Origin: Rhodoferax sp. OV413
GTDB lineage: Bacteria > Pseudomonadota > Gammaproteobacteria > Burkholderiales > Burkholderiaceae_C
NCBI RefSeq assembly: GCF_900104385.1
Contig: NZ_FNJA01000003.1
Coordinates: forward strand, 434,001-498,000
Length of the DNA stretch: 64,000 nt
Direction of reading: 5' to 3'
Positions 50,567-61,701 of the stretch are shown here, piece after piece. The stretch's first letter is position 1, and the number at the start of each line of letters is the position of its first letter. The notes under the pieces were generated by a model that was not told where the DNA came from, ran no database searches, and saw nothing but the letters and a program-made list of their open reading frames with translations. Position numbers and translations under genes: made by a program.

Positions 50567-50646
50567 GGCGGTTACGCCTTGATGAAAACCACAAACCAGG
50601 GTTTTTGGTGCATGCATCACAAAATCCGCCCCCCAAAGTAACCGCC
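50567..50646. repeat. Long-range inverted repeat upstream of the LuxR-type gene
   Basis: GGCGGTTAC (50567-50575) and GTAACCGCC (50638-50646) are perfect 9-bp arms 62 bases apart in the intergenic region, with CCTAG-AAACA-CTAGG right after. It may be a regulatory structure or chance. Confidence 0.35.
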
Positions 50647-50751
50647 TAGAAACACTAGGTTTACATATGCTTGGTACCAGCCACGCTGCCTACCGCATTC
50701 CATGCATCGGCCTGCATACCGCAGGACCAGCGGGCTCCCAGGGAATCCGCC

Positions 50752-51429
50752 ATGTTGCACTCTACTTTCGCCGCTCTCGCCTCCGAATCCGTCAATTACA
50801 TCGACGAACCCAGCACCAGTGAATCCCCCGACGCGCTGGGCCTGATGCAGTGCGTGCTGGAGCAGATGGATTACGGCCTGGCCCTGGTGCACATGGCAAC
50901 CCGCCAGATCCGCTTTGCCAACCGCCTGGCGCACGACGGCCTCAACGGCCCCGGCAGCCTGCGCAGCGGCCTGTGCGTAGTGGGCGGACGTCTGAGCACT
51001 CTGCTGCCTACCGACCATGCGCAACTGGAACGCGCCCTGCTGCGTGCCCACAGCGGCGTGCGGGCCCTGATCAGCCTGGGTGGCGAAGACTGCACCACCA
51101 GCGTCGCCGTGGTTCCGCTGAATGCCCCGACACCCACCCCTTATGCCTTGCTGGTATTTGCCAAGCAGCAGCTGTGCGACAGCTCGACCATGGCACTGTT
51201 CGCACGGGAACGTGGCCTGACCAGCGCCGAAAGCAATGTGCTAGCCTCGGTTTGCAGCGGCATGCGCCCCACCGAAATCGCCCAGCACCACGGCGTGCAG
51301 ATCTCCACCGTGCGCAGCCAGCTGCGCAGCATCCGGCTCAAAACCCGCTGCGACACCATCCGCCAACTGGTGGAAACCGTGTCCATCCTGCCGCCCATGG
51401 CGCGGCACATGGCGGCAGTGCAACACTGA
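50752..51429 (+). CDS. LuxR-type helix-turn-helix transcriptional regulator
   Basis: In this 225-residue protein, the N-terminal part (about 30-145) has a PAS-like pattern (QMDYGLALVHMATRQIRFAN). The C-terminal HTH (about 155-215) reads RGLTSAESNVLASVCSGMRPTEIAQHHGVQISTVRSQLR. No receiver domain is present. It is followed by the Crp/Fnr gene after 90 bases, same strand. Confidence 0.85.
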   Translation: MLHSTFAALASESVNYIDEPSTSESPDALGLMQCVLEQMDYGLALVHMATRQIRFANRLAHDGLNGPGSLRSGLCVVGGRLSTLLPTDHAQLERALLRAHSGVRALISLGGEDCTTSVAVVPLNAPTPTPYALLVFAKQQLCDSSTMALFARERGLTSAESNVLASVCSGMRPTEIAQHHGVQISTVRSQLRSIRLKTRCDTIRQLVETVSILPPMARHMAAVQH

Positions 51430-51519
51430 AGCCATCGGCCCGCCAGCCGGGCTTGCATTCGTCTTTCCACAGGCTTGCCATGGCTTAGACTGGCGTGCGC
51501 CGCTTGCGCCCGTCTATCC

Positions 51520-52182
51520 ATGCAAACCCCACTCCCGACCCTGACCCAACGCTTCTGCGACGACCCCAGCCACCCCCAACTGGTGCGTGAACTGGTGCCG
51601 CTGGGTGAAGTACGGCGCTACCGCAAGGGCTCGATCCTGATCCACGAGGCCGACGCCGGCGATACGCTGTTTGTGGTGGTGGACGGACGTGTCAAGGTGT
51701 ACTGCACCGACGACAACGACAAGGAAATCACCTTTGGAGTGATCGGCCCCGGCGAATACTTTGGCGAAATGGCACTGGACGGCGGCCCCCGCGCCGCCAG
51801 CGTGGTGACCCTGGAGTCCACCGTTTGCGCGCTGCTGACGCGCAATACGCTGCTGGGTTTCATCGCCCGGCAGCCGGAATTTGCGCTGCACCTGCTGTCC
51901 AAGGTGATCCGCCGCGCCCGTATGGCCACCAATAGTGCGCGCAACCTGGCCTTTGTCGACGTCTATGGCCGACTCAGCCAGTGCCTGCTGGGGCTGGCCA
52001 CTCCGCAGGAAGACGGAACGCAAAAAATCACCGAGCGCCTGACCCACCAGGAAATCGCCAGCCGCACCGGCTGCAGCCGGGAAATGGTCAGCCGGATACT
52101 GAAAGATCTGGAGAACGGCGGCTACGTGCGCATCGAAAACCGCCAGATCGTGCTGATGCAGCCGCTACCAGCGAGGTGGTAA
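51520..52182 (+). CDS. Crp/Fnr-family transcriptional regulator
   Basis: This 220-residue protein has a cyclic-nucleotide-binding beta-roll (about 20-135) with phosphate-binding cassette GEYFGEMALDGGPRAASV, where the Glu and Arg needed for cAMP/cGMP contact are retained; there are no Fnr-type Fe-S cysteines. The C-terminal wHTH is LTHQEIASRTGCSREMVSRILKDL. It should bind a cyclic nucleotide. A class III cyclase is encoded about 1 kb downstream, past the oppositely oriented GNAT gene. Confidence 0.9.
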   Translation: MQTPLPTLTQRFCDDPSHPQLVRELVPLGEVRRYRKGSILIHEADAGDTLFVVVDGRVKVYCTDDNDKEITFGVIGPGEYFGEMALDGGPRAASVVTLESTVCALLTRNTLLGFIARQPEFALHLLSKVIRRARMATNSARNLAFVDVYGRLSQCLLGLATPQEDGTQKITERLTHQEIASRTGCSREMVSRILKDLENGGYVRIENRQIVLMQPLPARW

Positions 52183-52205
52183 CTCCACCGCGCCAGATTT
52201 ATGCT

Positions 52206-52265
52206 TTTTAGGCCTCTAGCGCTTATGCAACAAGCACAAGACGCTACTTAATCAATAGCAAATCA
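52206..52265. repeat. Dispersed palindromic repeat (convergent gap)
   Basis: TTTTTAGGCCTCTAGCGCTT, a degenerate centre, then GACGCTACTTAATCAATAGCAAATC. It lies between the convergent Crp/Fnr and GNAT genes. Confidence 0.65.
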
Positions 52266-52790
52266 ATCCAGCGCGCGTTTCAGGCGAATTTCTTCGATCT
52301 TGATGTCGCCCATGGGCACGGTCTTGGCGGTGTTGAGTTCGCGCTTGAAGCCGGCCAGGTCAAAAAACCGCAGTGCGCGCTCGTTGCGCAGCGGAATCCA
52401 GACGGTGACGGTGGTGCAGCCTTCTTCGACCAGGGCTTCGCGGGCGGCATCCCACAGGGCCAGGCCCACGCCCTTGTCCCAGTGGCTGGCGGCGACGTAG
52501 ATCGACCAGATTTCGCCTACGGTGTTCTTCGTGCCTTTGTCGCGCGAGCGGTCGAAGCCCACAAAGCCGACGATCTTGTCGCCATCCAGCGCCACCTGCA
52601 CCTGCGGATCGCCGTATTCGATGGCTTCACGCCACAGGCTCAGGCGCTTGGGCATGGGCAAGGTGTTCAGATGCTCGTCCGGCACCAGGCCTTGGTAGGC
52701 GTCGGCGGTGGCGCTGACGTGCAAATCGGCAATCGCCTGGGCCTCGCGCAGCACGGCGGGGCGAACATCAATAGAGAGAGGACTGGTCAT
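52263..52790 (-). CDS. GNAT-family N-acetyltransferase
   Basis: The 175-residue product has a GNAT fold with the acetyl-CoA segment IWSIYVAASHWDKGVGLALWDAA, a V..KG.G variant of the usual Q/RxxGxG/A motif, and the later RNERALRFFDLAGFKRE. The substrate is unknown. ATG 52790 is taken from the domain start; no clear ribosome site. It is divergent from the ferredoxin gene. Confidence 0.85.
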   Translation of the reverse strand: MTSPLSIDVRPAVLREAQAIADLHVSATADAYQGLVPDEHLNTLPMPKRLSLWREAIEYGDPQVQVALDGDKIVGFVGFDRSRDKGTKNTVGEIWSIYVAASHWDKGVGLALWDAAREALVEEGCTTVTVWIPLRNERALRFFDLAGFKRELNTAKTVPMGDIKIEEIRLKRALD

Positions 52791-52908
52791 GGGGAAGTAA
52801 CGGCCAACAGCGGCCAAAGAACGAAAGTATTTCGGGGGAGCAGGATTGTCGCCGCAAAACGCAGGCTCTTGGCACCGGAGGGTGGCTCAGACTAAACTCA
52901 AGCCACCC

Positions 52909-53214
52909 ATGCCATCAGAAGCAACCCGTTACAAAGTCAGCCTTCTTCCTGAGGCCGAACACTTTGATGCCCCACCCGACCTGCCTGTGCTGGTGTCGGC
53001 CGAGCACGCGGGTCTGCTGCTCGCCAGTTCCTGCCGCAACGGCAGCTGCCGCAGCTGCATCTGCCGGATGCTGAGCGGGCGGGTGCGCTACCAGATCGCC
53101 TGGCCTGGCCTGAGTGCCGAGGAAAAAGCCGAGGGCTACATCCTGCCCTGTGTGGCTTATCCGATGTCTGACATGGTGGTCCAGCTGCCCCCGCGGGCAG
53201 GCTACACCTTCTGA
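52909..53214 (+). CDS. Plant-type [2Fe-2S] ferredoxin
   Basis: This 101-residue protein has cluster ligands Cys42, Cys47, Cys50 and Cys81 in the pattern CRNGSCRSC...LPCVAYP, the chloroplast-type spacing (C-x4-C-x2-C-xn-C). It carries electrons to an oxygenase or similar partner. It lies 24 bases upstream of the cyclase/ATPase gene and in the same direction as the P450 and DyP genes, so it may serve that P450. No reductase gene is present in the window. Confidence 0.88.
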   Translation: MPSEATRYKVSLLPEAEHFDAPPDLPVLVSAEHAGLLLASSCRNGSCRSCICRMLSGRVRYQIAWPGLSAEEKAEGYILPCVAYPMSDMVVQLPPRAGYTF

Positions 53215-53238
53215 CCCGGCCGCCGACGGAGCTGCGCA

Positions 53239-56200
53239 GTGCATACCTTTGACGCCCCCGCCCTGACCATGACGGTGCTGCTGGAAGAGTCGCGCATGTC
53301 GATGGCGATTTCCGACGGGCGTGCCATCGGCCTCATCACCAGCCTGCAGCTGGCGCCCTGCACGCTGGCGCCCCTGGCCGAACCGGCCCCGGCCAGCCAC
53401 CTCGAACTCCAGACCCGGGGCGCCGGCCTGTTTGCGCGGCTGTTCCCGGAAAAAATCCGCCTGCTGCTGCGCCACAGCCCGCCGCGCGACCTGTGCCTGC
53501 AGCTGGATGCGAAGCTGCTCGACATCCCCTGGGAAATGGCCTTCGATGGGAAGAACTTTCTGGGCGAAAAATTCCAGATTGCCCGGCGCATCGTGTCCGA
53601 TGCCACGCTGGCCTTCACGCCGCGCGTAGATCTGCACCGCGAAACCCTGCGGGTGCTGCTGGTGCTGGGTACCGGCAGCAGCCAGGCCCACAACGATTAC
53701 AGCAATGCCTTGGCCACCCGGCTGCGGGCCATGGAATACCTGGTCGTCACCGAGGCCAGCGCCCAGGCCCTGGAGCGCCCCGCCCTGCTGCGGCTGGCCG
53801 ACGAAAGCGACGTGGTGCATTGCATAGACGCGATCGACCCCAGCCTGCACCCCGCCACGGCGCACACCCTGCCGCTGGTCTGGAACGACCTTGCGCGCCA
53901 GGCCAAAACCGCCCAGCTGCTGGTATTCGACAGCCTGGCCAGCACAGCCGGCCACACCAGCAACACAGCCTGGCTGCAAACCGCCTGCCACCGCAGCGCT
54001 CCCGTATTGGTCCAAACCCATTGGACGGACGGGCACAACAGCGTCGACGGCATGCACTCGCTGTACCGAGGGCTGGCGCAAGGCATGGGTCTGGGCGAAG
54101 CCGTGCGCCTGGCCCGGGTAGAAGGCCTGCAGCACAGCGCCCATGGCGACACGGCCGGCCGGCGCCCCTGGACCCCGGCGCTCTACGGCGACGCCAAACT
54201 GGTCTTGCAGCCGGCCAGCGACCGCCCAGGGCTGGGCGACCATTTGCGCCAGGTCACCGCCATGTCCTGCGACCTGGTGGACTCGACCAAGCTGCTGGGC
54301 GTATGGGGCGCCGAACGCTACAGCGACATGCTCGACAGCTACCACGCAGCCTGTGCGGGCATCGTCGCGCGCTGGGGCGGCATATCGGACAGCCCCCAGG
54401 GCGACGACGGCGTGATGTGCTACTTCGGCATTCCGCTGGCCTACGAGGACTCAGCCGCGCGGGCACTGCGGGCCGGGCTGGAAATCCTGCAAATGGTCAC
54501 GCAGCTGGGTATCCAGGTGCGCCTGGGCGTGGTCACCGGCCACGTAGTGGTCAAGGGTGGCCAGCCTTTTGGGGTATCGCTGCACCTGGCGGCGCGGCTG
54601 CAGTCGATCGCCCGCCCCAACACCCTGGTGGCCAGCGACTCGACGCGGCAGATCGTCAAGAACAAGTTTATTTTTGAACGGCTGGACAGCCTGCCGCAGC
54701 TCAAGGGTTTTTCGCTGACCACCACCGCCTACCAGGTGCTGGGCGAAGTGCTAGACGGCACCACGCAGCCACGCGAAGGCGCCCCACCGCGGACCCCGTT
54801 TGTGGGCCGAGATTCCGAAATCCACCTATTGGAAACCCACTGGACCGGCGTGCAAACCGGCACACTGCGCAGCGTCCTGGTATCGGGCGAGGCCGGCATG
54901 GGCAAATCGCGCCTGGCCAGCGAGTTCCGCCGCCGGCTCGCAGCGCGCAGCCACCGCGCCATCGAATGCCGCTGCACGCCAGAGCACACCCATAGCGCCT
55001 TCCATCCGCTGATCGACCTACTGCGCCGGCGCCTGCGCCTGGGCGACGACGACACCACCGAAGCCAAGCTCGACAGGATCCGACACCGGCTGCCGCAAGC
55101 GATGGTGGACGACAGCAATCTGGCGCTGGTCGCTTCCCTGCTGTCGGTGCCGGTAGAAGGCCATCTGCCACCGCTGAAAGCCTCTGCCGAGAAACAACGC
55201 CAAGGCACCCTGGACGTACTGGTCGCCTGGCTGCTGCAGGAAACCCGGCGCGGTCCGGTCTGCCTGGTGGTCGAAGACCTGCAATGGATAGACCCGTCGA
55301 CCCGCGAGTTCCTGCACCGCGTGGTGGCTGAGGCAGAACAAGTCCCGCTACTGATCTTGCTGACCATGCGCTCGGAGCAGCCGCCCCCACACGACCCGGG
55401 CTTTGCGGTCCACGAAATCGCGCTCAAGGGTTTGTCGCCCGACGCCACGCGGGCCATGATATTGACCGCCTGCGGCCCCTCTGCCGTACCGGGCGAGATG
55501 GTTCAACTGCTGGCCGAAAAAGCCGACGGCGTGCCTTTGTTCATTGAGGAATCGGCGCGCATGGTGATGGACCTGGGGGTGCAGGCGCACAGCGGCGACG
55601 CCGCCCTGGCCGCCCGCTTCTCGGTGCCCTCCACCATCCACGACCTGCTGATGGCCCGGCTGGACCGGCTGGCCGGCGCCAAACAGGTAGCCCAGGTGGG
55701 TGCCACCATCGGCCGCGAATTCTCGCTGCCCTTGCTGCAGGCCATCCTGGGCCACGAAACCTCGCCCATCGGCCTGAACCACCTGCCAGCCCAGCTGGCC
55801 ACCCTGGTGCGCTCGGGCCTGCTGGTCGAAAAAGGCAGCGCCGCCAGCGCCAATTACTTCTTCAAGCATGCGCTGGTGCGCGACGCCGCCTACGGCTCGC
55901 TGTGGGAGCGTGACCGCAAACGCCTGCACCGCACCATTGCCAACGTGGTGCGTGAGCAATTCCAGGATCTGGCGCAAAGCCAGCCCGAGCTGCTGGCCCA
56001 CCATTTCGCGCAATCCGGCAACGACGCCCAGGCCCTCGAATACTGGGAACGCGCAGCCCGCCGCGCCGCCGCCCGCTCGGCCCACATGGAGGCCACCAAC
56101 CACCTGCGCAGCGGCTTGGGCCTGCTGGCCCGGTTGCCGGCCGTACCAGAGCGCGACCGCACCGAACTGCGCCTGCAGCTGATGCTGGCCGGGCAACTGA

Positions 56201-57348
56201 TCGCCACCCACGGCTATGGTGCCGACCAGGTTGGACATGCCTACGAGCGCGCGGCCGAACTCTGCCAGCGGGCCGGCGACGAAGCCGCGCAGATGAAAAC
56301 CCTGCTCGGCCTGGAGGGTTACCACTTCATGCGTGCCGACTTCGAGCGCGCCCACATCATCGCCCGCCAGGCCACCGCCATGCTGGGCGACTCGGTCGAC
56401 CCGATACGCAAGATCCAGCTGCAATGGGCAGTGGGCAACATCCTGTTCCACCAAGGCGAATTTGCGGCCACGGTGGAGCGCCTCGACGCCTGCCTGGTCG
56501 CCTACGACGCCATCCCCCACCATCCGAGCATGGTGCAGGACCCGGGTGTGATCTGCCTGTGCTATTCGGCCTGGGCCCTGTGGGAGATCGGCCAGGCCGA
56601 CCAGGCCCTGGCGCGCGCCCAGAAAGCCGTTGCCGTGGCCGAGCAGCTCGAACACAAATTCAGCATGGCCGAAGCCTATGCGTTCTGCGCCTCGGTGCAT
56701 TTGTTCCGCGGGGAGCACCCGCAAGCCCTGCAATGCGCCCAGCGGGCCCGGGACATCTGCCAGGAGAACGGCTTTGCGGTCTGGCTGGCCTATGCCCAGC
56801 TGCTGCACGGCCGCCTGGTAGCCGAGCTGGGTGACCCCGCAGCCGGGGTCGAAGAAATGCGGCAGGCCTATGGCATGTGGGTATCCACCGGCGCGGTCGT
56901 GACCCGCCCGCTGTACCTGGCGATGCAGGCCGAAGGCCTTGCCCTCGCCGGACGTCCCGATGACGGCCTGGCCGTGCTGGCCCAGGCCTTCGAACTGGTC
57001 TGCCAGTACAAGGAGCACTACCACGAGGCCGAGGTCCGCCGGCTCACCGGCGAGCTGATTCTGCAGTCGGCCGCCCAGCACGGGCAGGACCGCAGCCTGG
57101 AAGCCCAGCAGTGGCTGCTGGGTGCACTCGAATTTGCCCGCGCCCACCAGCACCATGCAGCCGCCTTGCGCAGTGCCACCAGCCTGGGCAGGTTGTGGCA
57201 GGCCCAGGGCCGGCCGCACGATGCCTGGCACATCCTCAAATTAGAGTATGACGCTGTAACAGAAGGTTACTACACTCAGGACGTGCAAGCTGCGAGCGCA
57301 TTGCTGGAACAGCTGCAGCTCGCCAGCAGCACACCCATCCTGGCATAA
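53239..57348 (+). CDS. Multidomain signalling protein: CHAT-like region, class III nucleotide cyclase, AAA/STAND ATPase, TPR tail
   Basis: This is a 1369-residue cytoplasmic protein. The start is GTG 53239, with GGAG seven bases upstream. Residues about 60-325 resemble a CHAT (caspase-like) domain (DIPWEMAFDG, then VVHCIDAID and LLVFDSLAS), but the AHG and NAC catalytic motifs are lost. Residues about 335-510 are a class III adenylate/guanylate cyclase: metal Asp345 (CDLVDSTKL), Asp390 (GDDGVMCYFG), Arg453 (LAARL); the transition-state Asn is replaced by His449. The AAA ATPase has Walker A GEAGMGKSR (from residue 550) and Walker B LVVED (676-680). From about 930 the sequence is helical and TPR-like. 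It likely senses a partner or ligand and controls the P450 and DyP genes downstream, directly or through a cyclic nucleotide. Confidence 0.82.
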   Translation: MHTFDAPALTMTVLLEESRMSMAISDGRAIGLITSLQLAPCTLAPLAEPAPASHLELQTRGAGLFARLFPEKIRLLLRHSPPRDLCLQLDAKLLDIPWEMAFDGKNFLGEKFQIARRIVSDATLAFTPRVDLHRETLRVLLVLGTGSSQAHNDYSNALATRLRAMEYLVVTEASAQALERPALLRLADESDVVHCIDAIDPSLHPATAHTLPLVWNDLARQAKTAQLLVFDSLASTAGHTSNTAWLQTACHRSAPVLVQTHWTDGHNSVDGMHSLYRGLAQGMGLGEAVRLARVEGLQHSAHGDTAGRRPWTPALYGDAKLVLQPASDRPGLGDHLRQVTAMSCDLVDSTKLLGVWGAERYSDMLDSYHAACAGIVARWGGISDSPQGDDGVMCYFGIPLAYEDSAARALRAGLEILQMVTQLGIQVRLGVVTGHVVVKGGQPFGVSLHLAARLQSIARPNTLVASDSTRQIVKNKFIFERLDSLPQLKGFSLTTTAYQVLGEVLDGTTQPREGAPPRTPFVGRDSEIHLLETHWTGVQTGTLRSVLVSGEAGMGKSRLASEFRRRLAARSHRAIECRCTPEHTHSAFHPLIDLLRRRLRLGDDDTTEAKLDRIRHRLPQAMVDDSNLALVASLLSVPVEGHLPPLKASAEKQRQGTLDVLVAWLLQETRRGPVCLVVEDLQWIDPSTREFLHRVVAEAEQVPLLILLTMRSEQPPPHDPGFAVHEIALKGLSPDATRAMILTACGPSAVPGEMVQLLAEKADGVPLFIEESARMVMDLGVQAHSGDAALAARFSVPSTIHDLLMARLDRLAGAKQVAQVGATIGREFSLPLLQAILGHETSPIGLNHLPAQLATLVRSGLLVEKGSAASANYFFKHALVRDAAYGSLWERDRKRLHRTIANVVREQFQDLAQSQPELLAHHFAQSGNDAQALEYWERAARRAAARSAHMEATNHLRSGLGLLARLPAVPERDRTELRLQLMLAGQLIATHGYGADQVGHAYERAAELCQRAGDEAAQMKTLLGLEGYHFMRADFERAHIIARQATAMLGDSVDPIRKIQLQWAVGNILFHQGEFAATVERLDACLVAYDAIPHHPSMVQDPGVICLCYSAWALWEIGQADQALARAQKAVAVAEQLEHKFSMAEAYAFCASVHLFRGEHPQALQCAQRARDICQENGFAVWLAYAQLLHGRLVAELGDPAAGVEEMRQAYGMWVSTGAVVTRPLYLAMQAEGLALAGRPDDGLAVLAQAFELVCQYKEHYHEAEVRRLTGELILQSAAQHGQDRSLEAQQWLLGALEFARAHQHHAAALRSATSLGRLWQAQGRPHDAWHILKLEYDAVTEGYYTQDVQAASALLEQLQLASSTPILA

Positions 57349-57395
57349 AGCGGGCCACAGCCATCTCGGTCAGTCGGCCCCATCACGGAGCTCCC

Positions 57396-59264
57396 ATGAC
57401 CAAGCTACTGAGTACCTTCGACGCGCCCGATACCTCGGCGTTCCAGCAAAACCGCCTGCTGTTCAGCTGGCTGAGCGACGAGCAGCAACGCGCCACGCTG
57501 TACCGCGAACTGCTATACACCCCACGCGTGCTGCCCTTCACCAGCCGCGCCGACACCAAGGCCCGGGCCAGCGATCCCGGCGACTCGCAGTACCACCAAA
57601 CCGTCTACCTGCTGACCCAGCGCGCCCATATCGAGCAGGCGCTGACCGACACCGCATCCTTCAGCAACTCGCCCTACCTGGCCCTGGGCAGCGGCACTTT
57701 CATGCTGGGCCTGGACAAAGACCAGCCCACGCCTGCCACCGACGAACACAAGGCCCAGCGCCAGTTTGCGATGGGCGCGTTCAAGTACGACGGCCGCACG
57801 ATTGCGGCGCTGTCGGCGCTGGCTTACCAGGCTGCCTCGGTGCTGCCGTTGAAAACCCGTGAGTTCGACCTGGCCTACCTGAGCGAACAGGCGGCGCTGC
57901 GTTTCGTCGGCTTTCTGTTCGGCTTTGCCCAGTCGGACGTGGGCCTGCTGGAGCAGACCATGCGCATGGCCTACAACGGCATGAGCTACCAGATGTTCGC
58001 CCGCCACTTTGTAGCCAACCCGCTGGCCGTGCCCCAGGCCTCGGGCGCGATGGGCATGCTGCTGGTGCGCGTAGGCCAGCTGATCGACCAGTACCAGCAG
58101 GCCATCGGTAAAAAAGAGCAAGACGATGTCGCCGCGCTGCAGCTGGAGCTGAAAGAGCTGCAGACCTTTGCCTTCCCGCCGCAGGGCGCCCAGCTGTTGA
58201 AGGATTTCGAACCCATCCTGCCGCGGCTGGCGCGCACCGCAGCCCAGTATTCCGGTACCGAGCTGGCAGCCATTGTGGTCGGCTCCATCGCCGGCATCAT
58301 CGGCAATGTGCAGGCCAGCGTCAGCATTGCGGTCAGCCAGTTTTTCACCCTGAACCAGATGCCGCTGGCCAAGGCTGCGGCGCTGCGTGCGGCGCAAAAC
58401 CCGGCCGATGGCGCTGCCCTGAGTGCGCTGATCCTGGAGGCACTGCGCCTGCAGCCGCCCGCACCCTTCTTGCCGCGCCGGGTGTTGAAGGACAACCCAT
58501 TTGGCGACGTGGACGGCGTGCGCGTCCCGGCCGGATCGCTGGTCATCCTGGCGGTGGGGGCCGCCACCCGCGACGATGGCCAGCCGCACCCGCACGAGTT
58601 CCGTGCCACGGCCACCAAAGACGACCCGCTGATCTTCGGTGGCGACCCCGGCGACCACCTGCACCAGTGCCTGGGCAAGTACATCGCCATGCCGCTGGTC
58701 GCCCAGGTGGTGCAGCAGGTGCTGCTGCTGCCCGGCCTGGCGCAAACGCTGGACCCGACCACTGGTGATGCCAACCGGCTACAAAAACACTGGGGTTTCA
58801 ACTGCAGCAGCTACCCCCTGCAGTACACCGTGGACAAACGTGTCATCCAGCAGTCGCTGAACGTGGTGATGGAAATCAAGAAGCCGCTGGCCGTGCATGC
58901 CGAGGCGCTGAAGCAGATCATCGTCTACGGTGCGCCGCGCATCGAGCTGCGACTGCAACAGGCGCGGCATGTGCACTTCGCGTTCTTCGAGTTTCTGGAG
59001 AACGACAGCAAGCTGGTGCTGCACACGATTTTCGACGGCGATTTCGATGCCTACATCGAACACTTCGCGCTGCAGATCGGCCCGCTGTTCGACCTGCTGT
59101 TCGAGCACATCGAGCATGCACCGCCGCTGCCGGTGGCCGAGTTTCCGAAGGAATTCATCGACGCCATCCGCCTGCACAACAAGGCGCCGGCCGGGCGTTA
59201 TTTCTACAGCGCCTATCCGCTGCGCACCGTGGCCGACATCGTCTCCAGTCCGGAGGTCCGCTAA
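57396..59264 (+). CDS. Cytochrome P450 with an additional C-terminal domain
   Basis: In the 622-residue product, residues about 30-450 are a P450: ExxR is EALR (Glu348/Arg351), and the heme-ligand loop is FGGDPGDHLHQCLGKY with Cys425. The I-helix region (VGSIAGIIGNVQAS) lacks the usual acid-alcohol (D/E-T) pair for O2 activation, hinting at peroxide use or isomerase chemistry. Residues about 465-622 form an extra domain (VHFAFFEFLENDSKL...) not found in ordinary P450s. I cannot name this domain with certainty. ATG 57396 is preceded by GGAG. The gene is followed immediately by the DyP gene (TAAATG). Confidence 0.85.
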   Translation: MTKLLSTFDAPDTSAFQQNRLLFSWLSDEQQRATLYRELLYTPRVLPFTSRADTKARASDPGDSQYHQTVYLLTQRAHIEQALTDTASFSNSPYLALGSGTFMLGLDKDQPTPATDEHKAQRQFAMGAFKYDGRTIAALSALAYQAASVLPLKTREFDLAYLSEQAALRFVGFLFGFAQSDVGLLEQTMRMAYNGMSYQMFARHFVANPLAVPQASGAMGMLLVRVGQLIDQYQQAIGKKEQDDVAALQLELKELQTFAFPPQGAQLLKDFEPILPRLARTAAQYSGTELAAIVVGSIAGIIGNVQASVSIAVSQFFTLNQMPLAKAAALRAAQNPADGAALSALILEALRLQPPAPFLPRRVLKDNPFGDVDGVRVPAGSLVILAVGAATRDDGQPHPHEFRATATKDDPLIFGGDPGDHLHQCLGKYIAMPLVAQVVQQVLLLPGLAQTLDPTTGDANRLQKHWGFNCSSYPLQYTVDKRVIQQSLNVVMEIKKPLAVHAEALKQIIVYGAPRIELRLQQARHVHFAFFEFLENDSKLVLHTIFDGDFDAYIEHFALQIGPLFDLLFEHIEHAPPLPVAEFPKEFIDAIRLHNKAPAGRYFYSAYPLRTVADIVSSPEVR

Positions 59265-60680
59265 ATGCCACACACCGCCCGGCTGGAAAAAGCCCACATC
59301 CAGAACATCGTGGCCAACGGCTACGACTTCCACTGCAGCCGCTACCTGGTGCTCAGCATCACCCAGGCCGATGCGGCACGGCAGTTTCTGCGCGCACTGC
59401 TGGACGGCGGCTGGGTGGTCTCGGCCACCGCCTCGCGCGCGGCTGCCGAACGGCTGAAGACCGAGCAGCGCTGCCCGATGGGCATAGGCTTCACCTTCCA
59501 AGGTCTGCAGCAATTGCAGCTGCCGTCGGTCTACCTGCGCGCCTTCCAGGACCGTGCGCCGGCCTTTGCCCAGGGCGCCTACCAACGCGCCGCGCACCGC
59601 CTGGCCGACACCGGCCCCAGCGCTGCCGAGCAGTGGGATACCAGCTTTAGGCCGAATACCGCGCACGTCTTCCTCACCCTGCATGCCGACACCCAGGCCG
59701 AGCTGGACCAGGCCCAGGCCACGCTGCAGCAGCTGGCCGGCGCGGCGTTTGCGCCCGAGGGCTGGACGGCAGCCTTCCAGGGCGGCCACCTGAACCGCGA
59801 GCGCAAAAAGCGCCGCATCCACTTCGGCTACCTGGACGGTCTCACCAACCCGCTGATCAACGGCCTGCACCCGCATGCCGCCCACTATGCCGACCTCAAG
59901 TTGCAGCCGCAGTTCCACGCGCCGGGCGAGTTCCTGCTGGGCCACGACAACGACGAGGGCTACAACCGCTGGCTGCTCAGCACCGAGGACGAGCCGGTGC
60001 GCCAGTTCTTTGCCAACGGCAGCTTCTCAGTCTTCCGCAAGATGGCGCAGGACACCGCGGCATTCGAGTCCTTCGTCGACAAGGCCGCCAGCGACGCCCC
60101 ATCGGCCGACTACGTGCGCGCCAAGATGCTGGGCCGCTGGCACGACGGCCGGGTGCTGGATGCAGCATCGCCCAACCAGCCCGGGCCAGACCACAGCCCC
60201 CAGTCCAACGCCGAGCTGAACGACTTCGACTTCTCGACCGACAAGCAAGGCCTGGGCTGCCCGTTCGGCGCGCACATCCGGCGCATGAACCCGCGCGCCG
60301 ACCCGGTCGTGCCGTTCCGCCGCCGGCCGCTGCTGCGCCGTGGCATTCCCTACGGTCCGCCCACCGGCGCCGACACGGCAGAGCTTGACCGCGGCCTGCT
60401 CGGCCTGTTCTTTTGCGCCAGCCTGGAAGACCAGTTCGAGCATCTGGTGTCCGAGTGGGGCAACAAGAACCCGTTTGGCGTGCCCAACCACAGCACGGCC
60501 AAAGACCCGCTGATCGGCAACCACGAAGGCAGCGGCGGCCAGTTCGACATCCCGCTGGGCGGGGGGGCGAACAAACCGCTCAGCGGCTTCACTCCCTTCG
60601 TCACCACGCGCGGCACGCTGTACACCATGTTCCCCAGCCTGCCGGCGCTGCGGGTGCTGGCCGAGCCACCGGCGGGCTGA
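59265..60680 (+). CDS. DyP-type heme peroxidase
   Basis: This 471-residue enzyme has the GXXDG motif FGYLDG with the distal Asp, proximal His in PFGAHIRRMNPR, and distal Arg in RRGIPYG, all intact. It is longer than the compact bacterial classes and nearer to the larger DyP subfamilies. No Tat or Sec signal is visible, so it is cytoplasmic, unless carried by a partner. GGAGG lies eight bases upstream of ATG 59265, within the P450 3' end. It uses H2O2 to oxidise an unknown substrate, perhaps sharing peroxide or product with the P450. Confidence 0.92.
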   Translation: MPHTARLEKAHIQNIVANGYDFHCSRYLVLSITQADAARQFLRALLDGGWVVSATASRAAAERLKTEQRCPMGIGFTFQGLQQLQLPSVYLRAFQDRAPAFAQGAYQRAAHRLADTGPSAAEQWDTSFRPNTAHVFLTLHADTQAELDQAQATLQQLAGAAFAPEGWTAAFQGGHLNRERKKRRIHFGYLDGLTNPLINGLHPHAAHYADLKLQPQFHAPGEFLLGHDNDEGYNRWLLSTEDEPVRQFFANGSFSVFRKMAQDTAAFESFVDKAASDAPSADYVRAKMLGRWHDGRVLDAASPNQPGPDHSPQSNAELNDFDFSTDKQGLGCPFGAHIRRMNPRADPVVPFRRRPLLRRGIPYGPPTGADTAELDRGLLGLFFCASLEDQFEHLVSEWGNKNPFGVPNHSTAKDPLIGNHEGSGGQFDIPLGGGANKPLSGFTPFVTTRGTLYTMFPSLPALRVLAEPPAG

Positions 60681-60689
60681 TGCAAGCCT

Positions 60690-60747
60690 AATAGGCTGCT
60701 GGCGCAGGCACCACCTGCGCCAGTGGCTATTAATACAATAGCAAATG
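60690..60747. repeat. Dispersed palindromic repeat after the DyP gene
   Basis: CTGGCGCAGG-CACCA-CCTGCGCCAG is a perfect 10-bp stem, followed by the second small palindrome GCTATT-AATAC-AATAGC. Confidence 0.85.
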
Positions 60748-60756
60748 TAGATCTGG

Positions 60757-60777
60757 AAGCCCCCACCGTGGGGCTTT
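60757..60777 (+). terminator. Rho-independent terminator after the DyP operon
   Basis: AAGCCCC and GGGGCTT pair across a 6-base loop, with a short T stretch. It follows the repeat and closes the P450-DyP operon. Confidence 0.65.
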
Positions 60778-60838
60778 CGTGCAGCGGGCACGCGGCTGCG
60801 CTATAAAACGCCTTTCGCCCGCAGAAAGCTCTCCCACC

Positions 60839-61645
60839 ATGACCACCACCCTGCCCACCTACTTCATCTCCCATGGCGGCGGCCCCTGGCCGTACATGGA
60901 AGAAATGCGCCCCATGATGCGCGTGCTGGCCGAGTCGCTGGCCGATATGCCGCGCCAGATCGGCGTCACCCCAAAAGCCGTGCTGTGCATCTCGGCGCAC
61001 TGGGAGGAAAGCGCCTTCACCGCCATGTCCCACCCGCAGCCGCCCATGCTGTACGACTACGGCGGCTTCCCGGAGCACACCTACCACGTGGTCTACCCGG
61101 CCCCCGGCGCACCAGAACTGGCGCAGCGCGTGCACGACCTGATTGCCGCCGCCGGCCTGCCGGCGCGGCTGGACCCGCAGCGCGGCTTTGACCACGGCAC
61201 GTTTTCGCCGCTGGTGGTGATGTACCCGCAGGCCGACGTGCCGGTGCTGCAGCTGTCGCTGAAGACCGGGCTGGACCCGGCCATCCACCTGGCGCTGGGC
61301 CGGGCCCTGGCCCCCCTGCGCGACGAGGGCGTGCTGATCGTCGGCAGCGGCCTGAGCTACCACAACCTGCGCATGTTCGGCCCGGCGGCCCGGGCGCCAT
61401 CCAAGGCTTTTGACGACTGGCTGCAGGACACCGTGGCCGCTACCCCGGCCGAGCGCGAAGCCCGCCTGCTGGCCTGGGCCAACGCGCCGGCAGCCCGCCT
61501 GGCGCATCCGCGCGAGGAACATCTGATCCCGCTGATGGTCGCCGTGGGCGCCGCTTTCAACGACCCGGCCACCTGCGTCTACCACGAGGAAGCCATGTAC
61601 GGCGGCGTCACCGCCTCCAGCTTTCGCTTCGACACCAAGGCATAA
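60839..61645 (+). CDS. Class III extradiol dioxygenase (LigB/DODA-type)
   Basis: This 268-residue protein has the LigB fold with likely zinc or iron ligands His12 (ISHGGGP), His54 (SAHWEES) and a C-terminal His in EEHLIPL; His119 (FDHGTFSP) is the usual catalytic His. Bacterial members include YgiD-type DOPA dioxygenases acting on catechols. A terminator before it separates it from the DyP operon, so a functional link is uncertain. Confidence 0.9.
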   Translation: MTTTLPTYFISHGGGPWPYMEEMRPMMRVLAESLADMPRQIGVTPKAVLCISAHWEESAFTAMSHPQPPMLYDYGGFPEHTYHVVYPAPGAPELAQRVHDLIAAAGLPARLDPQRGFDHGTFSPLVVMYPQADVPVLQLSLKTGLDPAIHLALGRALAPLRDEGVLIVGSGLSYHNLRMFGPAARAPSKAFDDWLQDTVAATPAEREARLLAWANAPAARLAHPREEHLIPLMVAVGAAFNDPATCVYHEEAMYGGVTASSFRFDTKA

Positions 61646-61701
61646 ACAGGCCGCCAGCGCATATACCACCTGCGTAAGCAGCTACATATTCAATAGCAAA
61701 A
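61644..61701. repeat. Dispersed palindromic repeat between dioxygenase and MORN-like genes
   Basis: GGCCGCCAGCGCATATACCA ... TGCGTAAGCAGCTACATATT followed by CAATAGCAAA. It fills the gap and forms the immediate 5' leader of the next gene. Confidence 0.8.

Follow-up and report, generated by a model that had tools for sequence, protein, structure and literature searches.

What joins an atypical cytochrome P450, a DyP-type peroxidase and a very large switch-like protein in one stretch of the Rhodoferax sp. OV413 genome? An earlier note, made from the letters of the window (the whole stretch of DNA analysed, 64,000 nucleotides), had read these genes as a regulated heme-oxidation module. As it stated, a ferredoxin, a 1369-residue protein, a P450 with an extra domain (here Cdom) and a DyP peroxidase lie closely spaced on one strand, with intergenic gaps of 24, 47 and 0 nt (Table 1). 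A Crp/Fnr-type gene is also present upstream, although it does not adjoin the ferredoxin gene, since a GNAT gene on the opposite strand lies between them; the latter is in place across the genus, was seen in none of the diverged loci and is probably a bystander. Hairpins do follow the DyP gene, where a terminator had been placed, but the terminator scan output lists neither of them, and termination at this point is therefore only possible. The scan of positions 50600-61700 found one promoter-like hit against 1.3 expected by chance; its -10 element is identical in the window and all four aligned congeners, and its -35 element in three of the four (not in L021). The downstream LigB-type gene is probably not part of the module.

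Table 1. Features of the locus, in window coordinates
Feature	Coordinates	Strand	Evidence or remark
LuxR-type regulator (GerE-like HTH), neighbour	50752..51429	+	GerE E 0.008, under cut-off
Crp/Fnr-type regulator, possible member of module	51520..52182	+	PF00027, PF13545
GNAT acetyltransferase, between Crp and ferredoxin	52263..52790	-	In place across the genus
Candidate operator, 16-nt block identical in window and 4 congeners	52843..52858	+	Upstream of promoter-like site
Promoter-like TTGGCA-18-TAAACT	52869..52898	+	Promoter scan and congener alignment
[2Fe-2S] ferredoxin	52909..53214	+	PF00111
STAND-type switch protein, 1369 aa, GTG start	53239..57348	+	AAA_16, TPR_12, CHAT-like, class III cyclase homology
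P450-Cdom, whole ORF, 622 aa	57396..59264	+	PF00067
Atypical cytochrome P450 domain	57396..58841	+	Heme Cys425, I-helix Asn304
Cdom, C-terminal domain of P450 protein	58848..59261	+	Ferredoxin-like, ABM-like fold in model
DyP peroxidase	59265..60680	+	PF21105; catalytic Asp191, His337, Arg359
Perfect 10-bp hairpin, possible terminator, without T run	60699..60723	+	After DyP
Second hairpin, then TTTC	60756..60778		After DyP
LigB-type extradiol dioxygenase (DODA-like), neighbour in window's clade	60839..61645	+	Downstream of DyP

The STAND protein, the P450-Cdom protein and DyP form a conserved unit, usually together with a patatin-like phospholipase. The earlier note had staked its module on conservation beyond this strain, and the STAND protein is indeed followed by P450-Cdom in all 28 window-type loci found, with DyP downstream in 25/25 loci that extend that far, which supports a conserved, co-directional heme-oxidation module with a STAND-type protein. 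Patatin comes next in 16 of the 23 testable loci and shares one frame with DyP in two of them (L062 and, by coordinates, L063); GxSxG is found in all 16 patatins and DGG in 14, contig ends truncating the remaining pair (L047 and L060). The window's clade has no patatin at the locus and carries the ferredoxin there instead, the patatin homologue of the window's genome being located elsewhere. The earlier note had missed this phospholipase, which is part of the system in most of the relatives. As a control, none of eight unrelated P450 loci (second-tier hits, ±1.5 kb) matched the DyP or Cdom models. A chance neighbourhood of unrelated genes, in favour of which nothing was found, is thus refuted by the 28/28 loci, together with single-frame fusions and Cdom-DyP proximity in 30/30 loci (see below). 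Viral contigs contained no relative of the P450 and plasmids no near DNA match; tblastn of plasmids with the P450 protein matched only Cdom, which led to the link with DyP described below.

The expected co-occurrence did not extend to the ferredoxin, which was detected in 6 of the 28 window-type loci, exactly the window's clade, a count to be read with several contigs outside the clade starting inside the switch gene; within the clade it adjoins in 6/6. This ferredoxin argues for an electron-fed P450 and against action on hydroperoxides. Crp, proposed to belong to the module, is in place throughout the genus wherever the contig extends to its position, but of the 22 window-type loci outside the clade (many contigs being short) four contain a Crp homologue and four a LuxR homologue, and the LuxR-Crp pair also stands alone, both being present in genome G004, which is without the P450. 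LuxR homologues were seen in L030, L054, L063, L064 and L066. Crp is thus a possible but unproven member.

The large protein has the STAND-type build and the CHAT, cyclase and ATPase domains that had been assigned to it, but with losses at key residues. AAA_16 and TPR_12 score above cut-off, CHAT does so (27.3 vs 24 bits) only with the N-terminus searched by itself, and the cyclase homology, searched as a segment, falls just under it (21.4 vs 21.9 bits). Class III nucleotide cyclases use two metal-binding Asp residues and a transition-state Asn and Arg, and CHAT proteases a His and a Cys. Among 26 aligned sequences the cyclase Asn is replaced by His in 25 and by Val in one, the metal Asp residues and the Arg being retained wherever that part is present; the CHAT His and Cys were not seen in 19 aligned CHAT-like sequences, several of them partial. 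Because these catalytic residues are lost, neither domain is likely to be catalytic. For the same reason, the loss of the cyclase Asn, we do not favour a scheme for the window type in which the large protein produces cAMP and Crp responds to it. Such a scheme may still hold for wider clusters such as L070, in which the Asn appears by eye to be retained.

Conservation is lowest in the CHAT-like part, with 42-54% identity between the window and five congeners against 69-86% for the NTPase and cyclase parts. An arms race behind this rapid change is weakened as an explanation, because genomes G000 and G005 show a pattern resembling segment replacement, their P450-DyP-LigB segments being 89-94% alike and their upstream genes no closer than to other congeners. 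The variable N-terminus, the STAND build, the patatin in most loci and the resemblance of the L102 patatin to a CBASS lipase (124 bits, cut-off 200) would also suit an immune or altruistic-suicide system, with a STAND sensor, a membrane-attacking patatin as effector and heme enzymes that make toxic lipid products. We regard such a system as very unlikely: PADLOC gave no match for the P450-Cdom or DyP proteins, only a weak PycC match for the STAND protein (17.6 bits) and cyclic-nucleotide-domain matches for Crp, the neighbours are the same throughout the genus, patatin is absent from the window's lineage and the CHAT catalytic residues are missing.

The P450 is a true member of its fold (Foldseek, best E 4.6e-12) and has the heme-thiolate Cys425 in 28/28 sequences, although PF00067 covers only residues 342-405, around ExxR, and does not reach this Cys. 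ExxR itself is degenerate, with E in 15 and R in 18 of 27 aligned sequences. With the I-helix register set by alignments to P450eryF and 6gmf, Asn304 is invariant (28/28), no sequence of the 28 has Asp or Glu at the acid position and one has Thr at the alcohol place, so that the acid-alcohol pair of a conventional P450 monooxygenase is lacking. An axial distal Asn occurs in PGIS (Asn287), plant AOS (Asn321) and fungal LDS/EAS, but some enzymes of this kind can do without it, and TXS and fungal AOS lack it (PMC13049297, excerpt). This Asn position is all that the window P450 has in common with hydroperoxide-isomerising P450s: kinship to CYP74, CYP8A or fungal LDS/AOS was not seen, the listed PDB sequence matches being bacterial P450s, CYP19A1 and CYP51, and the Asn is missing from the wider-family P450s (L107-L117). 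As evidence for hydroperoxide chemistry, the residue is not decisive.

These active-site features also bear on a different role, close to what the earlier note had in mind, in which a ferredoxin-fed P450 monooxygenase and DyP degrade or detoxify an aromatic or xenobiotic compound and LigB supplies the ring-opening step. The adjoining ferredoxin and the downstream LigB/DODA gene of the window's clade are consistent with it, as are the aromatic substrates known for DyPs (PMC10820274, excerpt), but the remaining 22 window-type loci yielded neither gene (several contigs ending before the ferredoxin place), the O2-activating acid of the I-helix is absent in 28/28, and patatin recurs in 16/23. We therefore consider this role rather unlikely.

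No Pfam or NCBIfam model matches Cdom above its cut-off; the modelled structure has a ferredoxin-like, ABM-like fold (pLDDT 88.5), for which the Foldseek matches were ABM-like and all weak (best E 0.013). The DyP, whose Dyp_perox_C match lies just below cut-off, is of class V type and keeps the GxxDG Asp (25/25), the proximal His (25/25) and, where that part is present, the distal Arg (24/24), residues whose roles are given in PMC10820274 (excerpt). Cdom and DyP together form a wider unit, with either a P450 or a catalase-like protein as second heme enzyme. In the loci located through Cdom, DyP lies within 1221 nt in 30/30 and within 307 nt in 26/30, and the unit is present in all 11 plasmid loci opened. 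In the reverse direction Cdom adjoins DyP in 18 of 22 places, 17 of the 22 having already been found through Cdom or through the window itself, and two of the five new places having Cdom. The second heme enzyme of the 30 Cdom loci is a P450 in 13, a catalase-like protein in 11 and neither in 6, the label "catalase family" being taken from plasmid records and from similarity to the proteins in them; scans of two of these proteins (L031 and L104) gave no Pfam or NCBIfam match. P450, Cdom and DyP are fused in a single frame in L107, L108, L111 and L116 and on Novosphingobium aromaticivorans pNL2, and in a 75-row tree of DyP sequences 12 changes suffice for the partner labels, against a shuffled mean of 40.6. 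Judging from these sequences, DyPs of this type usually have Cdom as their partner, and do so in several phyla. The earlier note had not recognised the extra P450 domain as such a partner.

Some of these loci suggest tailoring of a secondary metabolite or signal, a peptide or polyketide being modified by the heme enzymes under SARP, LuxR or STAND control. One Cdom-DyP pair adjoins TOMM genes in Gloeothece, a SARP regulator accompanies the Novosphingobium fusion, the nearest Cdom folds include polyketide cyclases (weak matches), and the STAND protein matches TIGR03903 (TOMM_kin_cyc) with 504.1 bits. This score is, however, below the cut-off of 705.75 and the kinase half is absent, the recurrent extra gene is a patatin, and no biosynthetic core gene was noticed by eye in three ORF lists, and we find tailoring quite unlikely.

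Lipid-type enzymes occur near Cdom in 6 of 30 loci, the other 24 being without any of those modelled; a constant association with a fatty-acid dioxygenase was therefore rejected. These are an alpha-dioxygenase homologue in L113 (PDB 4kvj, E 8e-57), a RoxA-like protein in L103, patatins in L102 and L132, and, in L104 and L105, two-CXXCH proteins adjoining Cdom-DyP with weak, below-cut-off family matches. Two-CXXCH proteins had no oxygenase match in the PDB and are present in 8/8 genomes of the genus, including G004, which is without the P450. The window's genome gave no lipoxygenase or animal-heme-peroxidase match, and this, like the scarcity of lipid-type enzymes in the Cdom loci and the separate position of the patatin homologue, counts against action on lipid hydroperoxides.

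Taken together, we propose, with evenly balanced confidence, that the locus encodes a STAND-regulated enzyme module acting on fatty-acid (or other lipid) hydroperoxides; lipid oxidation, one of the options raised in the earlier note, is the best-supported chemistry. In most relatives the patatin would free or deliver the acyl substrate, the pair of DyP and the ferredoxin-fold Cdom would make or reduce the hydroperoxide, and the P450, with a distal Asn like that of AOS and prostacyclin synthase and no oxygen-activating acid, may rearrange or split the O-O bond, the job of coral catalase-related allene oxide synthases and lyases. Signal sensing might fall to the CHAT-like and cyclase-like domains of the STAND protein, which are divergent and probably non-catalytic, and the protein would then switch the enzymes or their expression. 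Because patatin is absent and a ferredoxin present in the window's lineage, the module there may draw its substrate from another source and perhaps also differ in its need for electrons. It is conceivable, though we doubt it, that class V-type DyP and Cdom are a two-part enzyme that makes the hydroperoxide, in the manner of a dioxygenase, in an as yet unrecognised oxylipin pathway of bacteria. This pathway would be phospholipase-fed and STAND-gated, with P450 and catalase-like proteins as interchangeable second steps, and would parallel the eicosanoid cascade with unrelated components.

What DyP peroxidases do in nature is described as unsettled (PMC10820274, PMC11107159, excerpts), and PMC11719350 (excerpt) had no match for DyP. 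The regular association of one DyP type with a single unnamed small domain, mostly along with a P450 or catalase-like enzyme, gives DyP a concrete partner and a candidate substrate class, and would add a regulated lipid-oxidation pathway to bacteria. In agreement with the earlier note, which knew of no such system, our literature search found no title or abstract start describing this composition.

Among known systems, the fungal dioxygenase-P450 fusions (linoleate diol, epoxy alcohol and allene oxide synthases) have, to our knowledge, no counterpart of Cdom, patatin or STAND. In them a heme peroxidase-type enzyme works with, or is fused to, a self-sufficient P450, some of these P450s having an Asn at the distal site (PMC13049297, excerpt); similarly, single-frame P450-Cdom-DyP proteins exist here, but the peroxidase is a DyP instead of a COX-type enzyme and the chemistry is predicted. 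The coral allene oxide synthase/hydroperoxide lyase joins a catalase-like heme protein to a lipoxygenase, the hydroperoxide-making enzyme (PMC5617202, excerpt), and a catalase-like protein likewise takes the place of the P450 in some Cdom loci, with DyP-Cdom where the coral has lipoxygenase. The Pseudomonas oleate diol synthase pathway uses FadCcp and RoxA-like di-heme proteins (PMC4496055, excerpt); in L103-L105 a protein of RoxA-like or two-CXXCH type lies beside Cdom-DyP, with a weak family match in L104 and L105, but none lies next to the window's P450. TOMM kinase/cyclase fusions (TIGR03903) share the cyclase homology-STAND-TPR order of the window protein, which differs in having a CHAT-like N-terminus where the kinase is and a score below cut-off. 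Finally, Deinococcus radiodurans DrDyP (DR_A0145), the protein of PDB 8RE2/8RE3, which are also the best PDB matches of the window DyP, has Cdom upstream and a catalase-like protein downstream, and no P450 or STAND within 6 kb. It was studied alone and was inactive at physiological pH (PMC10820274, excerpt). Because this protein lies in a Cdom cluster, the partner idea is testable, and the absence of Cdom is a simple possible reason for such inactivity.

The ferredoxin, switch protein, P450 and DyP genes of the window are separated by gaps of 24, 47 and 0 nt, and LuxR-like and Crp/Fnr genes lie upstream of this block, from which they are separated by a GNAT gene on the opposite strand. A promoter-like site precedes the ferredoxin gene. 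Since the promoter scan returned one such site against 1.3 expected, the weight of this site rests on its conservation, its -10 element being identical in the window and four congeners and its -35 element in three of the four.

Features of the window and of related clusters
Feature	Position	Strand	Remarks
16-nt block	52843-52858		identical in window and all 4 congeners
Promoter-like site	52869-52898		5' of ferredoxin; promoter scan and congener comparison
Ferredoxin	52909-53214	+	window
Switch protein, 1369-aa multidomain protein	53239-57348	+	window
P450, 622 aa	57396-59264	+	window
DyP	59265-60680	+	window
Fatty-acid alpha-dioxygenase homologue, 1008 aa	L113:3271-6294	-	divergent from Cdom-DyP-catalase-like cluster
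Second Cdom-DyP cluster, own genome (G000)	G000:C5 ~896-905 kb (L104:1350-10420)		two-CXXCH protein, GMC oxidoreductase, double Cdom, DyP, catalase-like protein

The C-terminal domain of the P450 protein (Cdom; residues 485-622) gave a single Pfam match at a loose limit, to UPF0128 at 13.6 bits, below the cut-off of 21, and three Cdoms had no NCBIfam match at E 0.001. By tblastn, plasmids of Sphingomonas, Paracoccus and Acinetobacter were found to encode Cdom as a free "hypothetical protein" next to genes for DyP and a "catalase family protein". A profile built from 19 Cdoms matched 23 genomes out of 397 in the Pseudomonadota set and 10 out of 399 in the set for the order, three of the latter being already in the first set. 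In all 30 distinct Cdom loci analysed, the window's own excluded, a DyP gene lies on the strand of Cdom at a distance of at most 1221 nt (at most 307 nt in 26; 831-1221 nt in L112, L114, L115 and L118). In the reverse search, the window DyP matched 22 places in 19 of 299 genomes at E 1e-15, and Cdom adjoins DyP at 18 of these places with the original model and at 19 with a widened one, three being without Cdom even with wider flanks; 17 of the 22 were the window's own or previously known via Cdom, and two of the five new places have Cdom. On plasmids, 74 records had a DyP match, and all 11 analysed, picked for taxon spread among the matches listed (40 of 74), carry Cdom upstream of DyP, four of them scoring only 30-41 bits; Cyanobacteriota, Actinomycetota, Deinococcota and Acidobacteriota are included among the taxa. 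A Cdom structure model built on 34 sequences reached a mean pLDDT of 88.5 and shows a ferredoxin-like core of beta-alpha-beta-beta-alpha topology. Because the Foldseek matches, to ABM-like dimeric ferredoxin folds, have high probabilities yet E values above 0.01, this fold class is likely for Cdom, while kinship to these folds is not established.

The second heme enzyme varies: among the 30 Cdom loci, four of which (L107, L108, L133 and L134) come from a single genus, it is a P450 in 13, a catalase-like protein in 11 and neither in six. P450, Cdom and DyP share one reading frame of 1411-1535 aa in L107, L108, L111 and L116, and on Novosphingobium aromaticivorans pNL2 they are annotated as one gene, SARO_RS19865, adjoined by a SARP regulator. 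In a DyP tree with 75 sequences, window-type proteins form one side of a branch (100/100), and the partner labels require 12 changes compared with a shuffled mean of 40.6. A class III cyclase homologue occurs in 10 of the 30 loci, along with STAND in six, and a Crp-like gene in six. Beside other Cdom-DyP pairs we observed TOMM peptide genes (SagB-type dehydrogenase and leader-binding protein; L136, Gloeothece verrucosa plasmid Cy782202) and, by eye, a SIR2-like protein and another small NTPase-like gene 3' of the pair (L072:12274-14531).

With the P450 protein as query, 18 of 100 relatives gave matches: 10, own genome included, to the full P450 plus C-terminal domain, seven to the P450 only and weakly, and one to the C-terminal domain only. 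Seven of the eight genomes of the genus (own included) have P450-Cdom, the exception being the congener G004. A scan of genome contigs gave 152 pattern matches and 31 relatives, 25 with full P450-Cdom, all named as Burkholderiales or unclassified (beta)proteobacterial, and six with Cdom without a fused P450. After removal of seven duplicates, the scan loci together with the window, L024 and L025 make up 28 distinct window-type loci, in all of which a STAND/TPR part lies directly upstream of P450-Cdom; all 25 loci that reach far enough have DyP directly downstream, the contigs of L049, L050 and L053 ending before its place. A patatin-like phospholipase gene (PF01734) follows DyP in 16 of the 23 loci with room, and is absent at the window, L024, L025, L042, L043, L046 and L052; DyP and patatin share a single open frame in L062 and, by coordinates, in L063. 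Ferredoxin model matches were confined to the window, L024, L025, L042, L043 and L046 among the 28 loci, several other contigs starting inside the switch gene, and these six are the starred clade of the DyP tree (100/99). The simplest account is one patatin loss and one ferredoxin gain in the window's lineage. Two Cdom matches, instead of one, were seen behind the P450 core in L048, L061 and L066.

Compared with the congener G005 (L021), the P450, DyP and LigB of window positions 57396-61645 are 89-94% identical, while Crp, LuxR, ferredoxin and switch protein match G005 no better than they match other congeners, at 42-79% identity for the parts of the switch protein; a segment replacement with its break between switch protein and P450 is probable. 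Crp and LuxR are both in place across the genus where contigs reach, and outside the clade, where many contigs are short, each has homologues in four of 22 window-type loci (Crp in L058, L063, L064 and L066; LuxR in L054, L063, L064 and L066). In 13 genomes searched the pair is often located elsewhere, and both are present in G004, which is without the P450. Crp and LuxR are possible members of the module.

At the catalytic Asn position of the cyclase homology domain, 25 of 26 switch proteins have His and one Val, the metal Asp residues and Arg being kept wherever that part is present, and the His/Cys motif was not seen in 19 aligned CHAT-like sequences, several of them partial. Given this degenerate cyclase and these CHAT-like residues, the protein is more likely to be a sensor or switch than a source of cyclic nucleotide. 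Its match to TIGR03903 is below cut-off, and identity between the window and five congeners is 42-54% in the CHAT-like part and 69-86% in the cyclase and NTPase parts.

The P450s of all 28 window-type loci keep the heme Cys and Asn304; none has Asp/Glu at the O2-activating acid position, and one has Thr at the alcohol position. Asn304 aligns with the Gly of the A-G-x-[DE]-T motif in HMMER alignments to P450eryF and 6gmf and, by eye, lies in the same register as PGIS QGN287 and plant AOS FN321, as given in PMC13049297. Because the distal Asn is dispensable in some such enzymes and absent in others, according to the same paper, and is missing from the P450s of L107-L117, Asn304 is a hint and not proof.

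Lipid-type enzymes occur near Cdom-DyP in six of the 30 loci (L102, L103, L104, L105, L113 and L132). The best PDB matches of the animal-heme-peroxidase protein of L113 are fatty-acid alpha-dioxygenases (E 8e-57). L103 has a RoxA-like protein; according to PMC4496055, the fatty-acid dioxygenase and the diol synthase of P. aeruginosa are relatives of this family. Proteins with two CXXCH motifs in L104 and L105 have weak family matches and no oxygenase match in PDB; the one of L104, which belongs to the window genome, was found in all eight genus genomes, so that it may be a source of hydroperoxide acting in trans, or may be unrelated. Patatins lie near Cdom-DyP in L102 and L132, one is annotated in the plasmid locus L140, and patatin is the recurrent extra gene of window-type loci. 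These neighbours suggest that the module may act on lipid hydroperoxides. Against this, the window's own lineage lacks patatin at the locus and has ferredoxin instead, and searches of the window genome for lipoxygenase and animal heme peroxidase gave no match. A lipoxygenase match in another genome (G490 contig C3: 124758-125783; PF00305, 172.6 bits) apparently lies on the contig that carries L063, one of the P450 loci, at a distance of over 20 kb. In L140 (3234-13131; Sphingomonas naphthae plasmid) genes for a catalase-like protein, Cdom, DyP, a thioesterase and patatin form one run with a set of efflux transporters, which raises the possibility that the catalase variant includes export.

In a D. 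radiodurans record (L142), a Cdom gene, the DyP of structure 8RE2/8RE3 (DrDyP, DR_A0145) and a catalase-like gene stand in a row. According to PMC10820274, DrDyP shows no activity at physiological pH and might be under the control of other proteins; Cdom is a candidate for such a partner. The main text of that paper contains neither "operon" nor "catalase", and "upstream" in one cloning sentence only. A text search of the DyP review PMC8197335 returned nothing on P450s, fusions, fatty acids or lipids. Full-text literature searches, whose coverage mostly excludes subscription papers, gave no description of the module among the matches listed. Its lipid-hydroperoxide chemistry is putative. To our knowledge, the composition of the module resembles no known system, and its putative logic would be that of a new, unrelated version of the peroxidase-plus-P450 oxylipin cascades.
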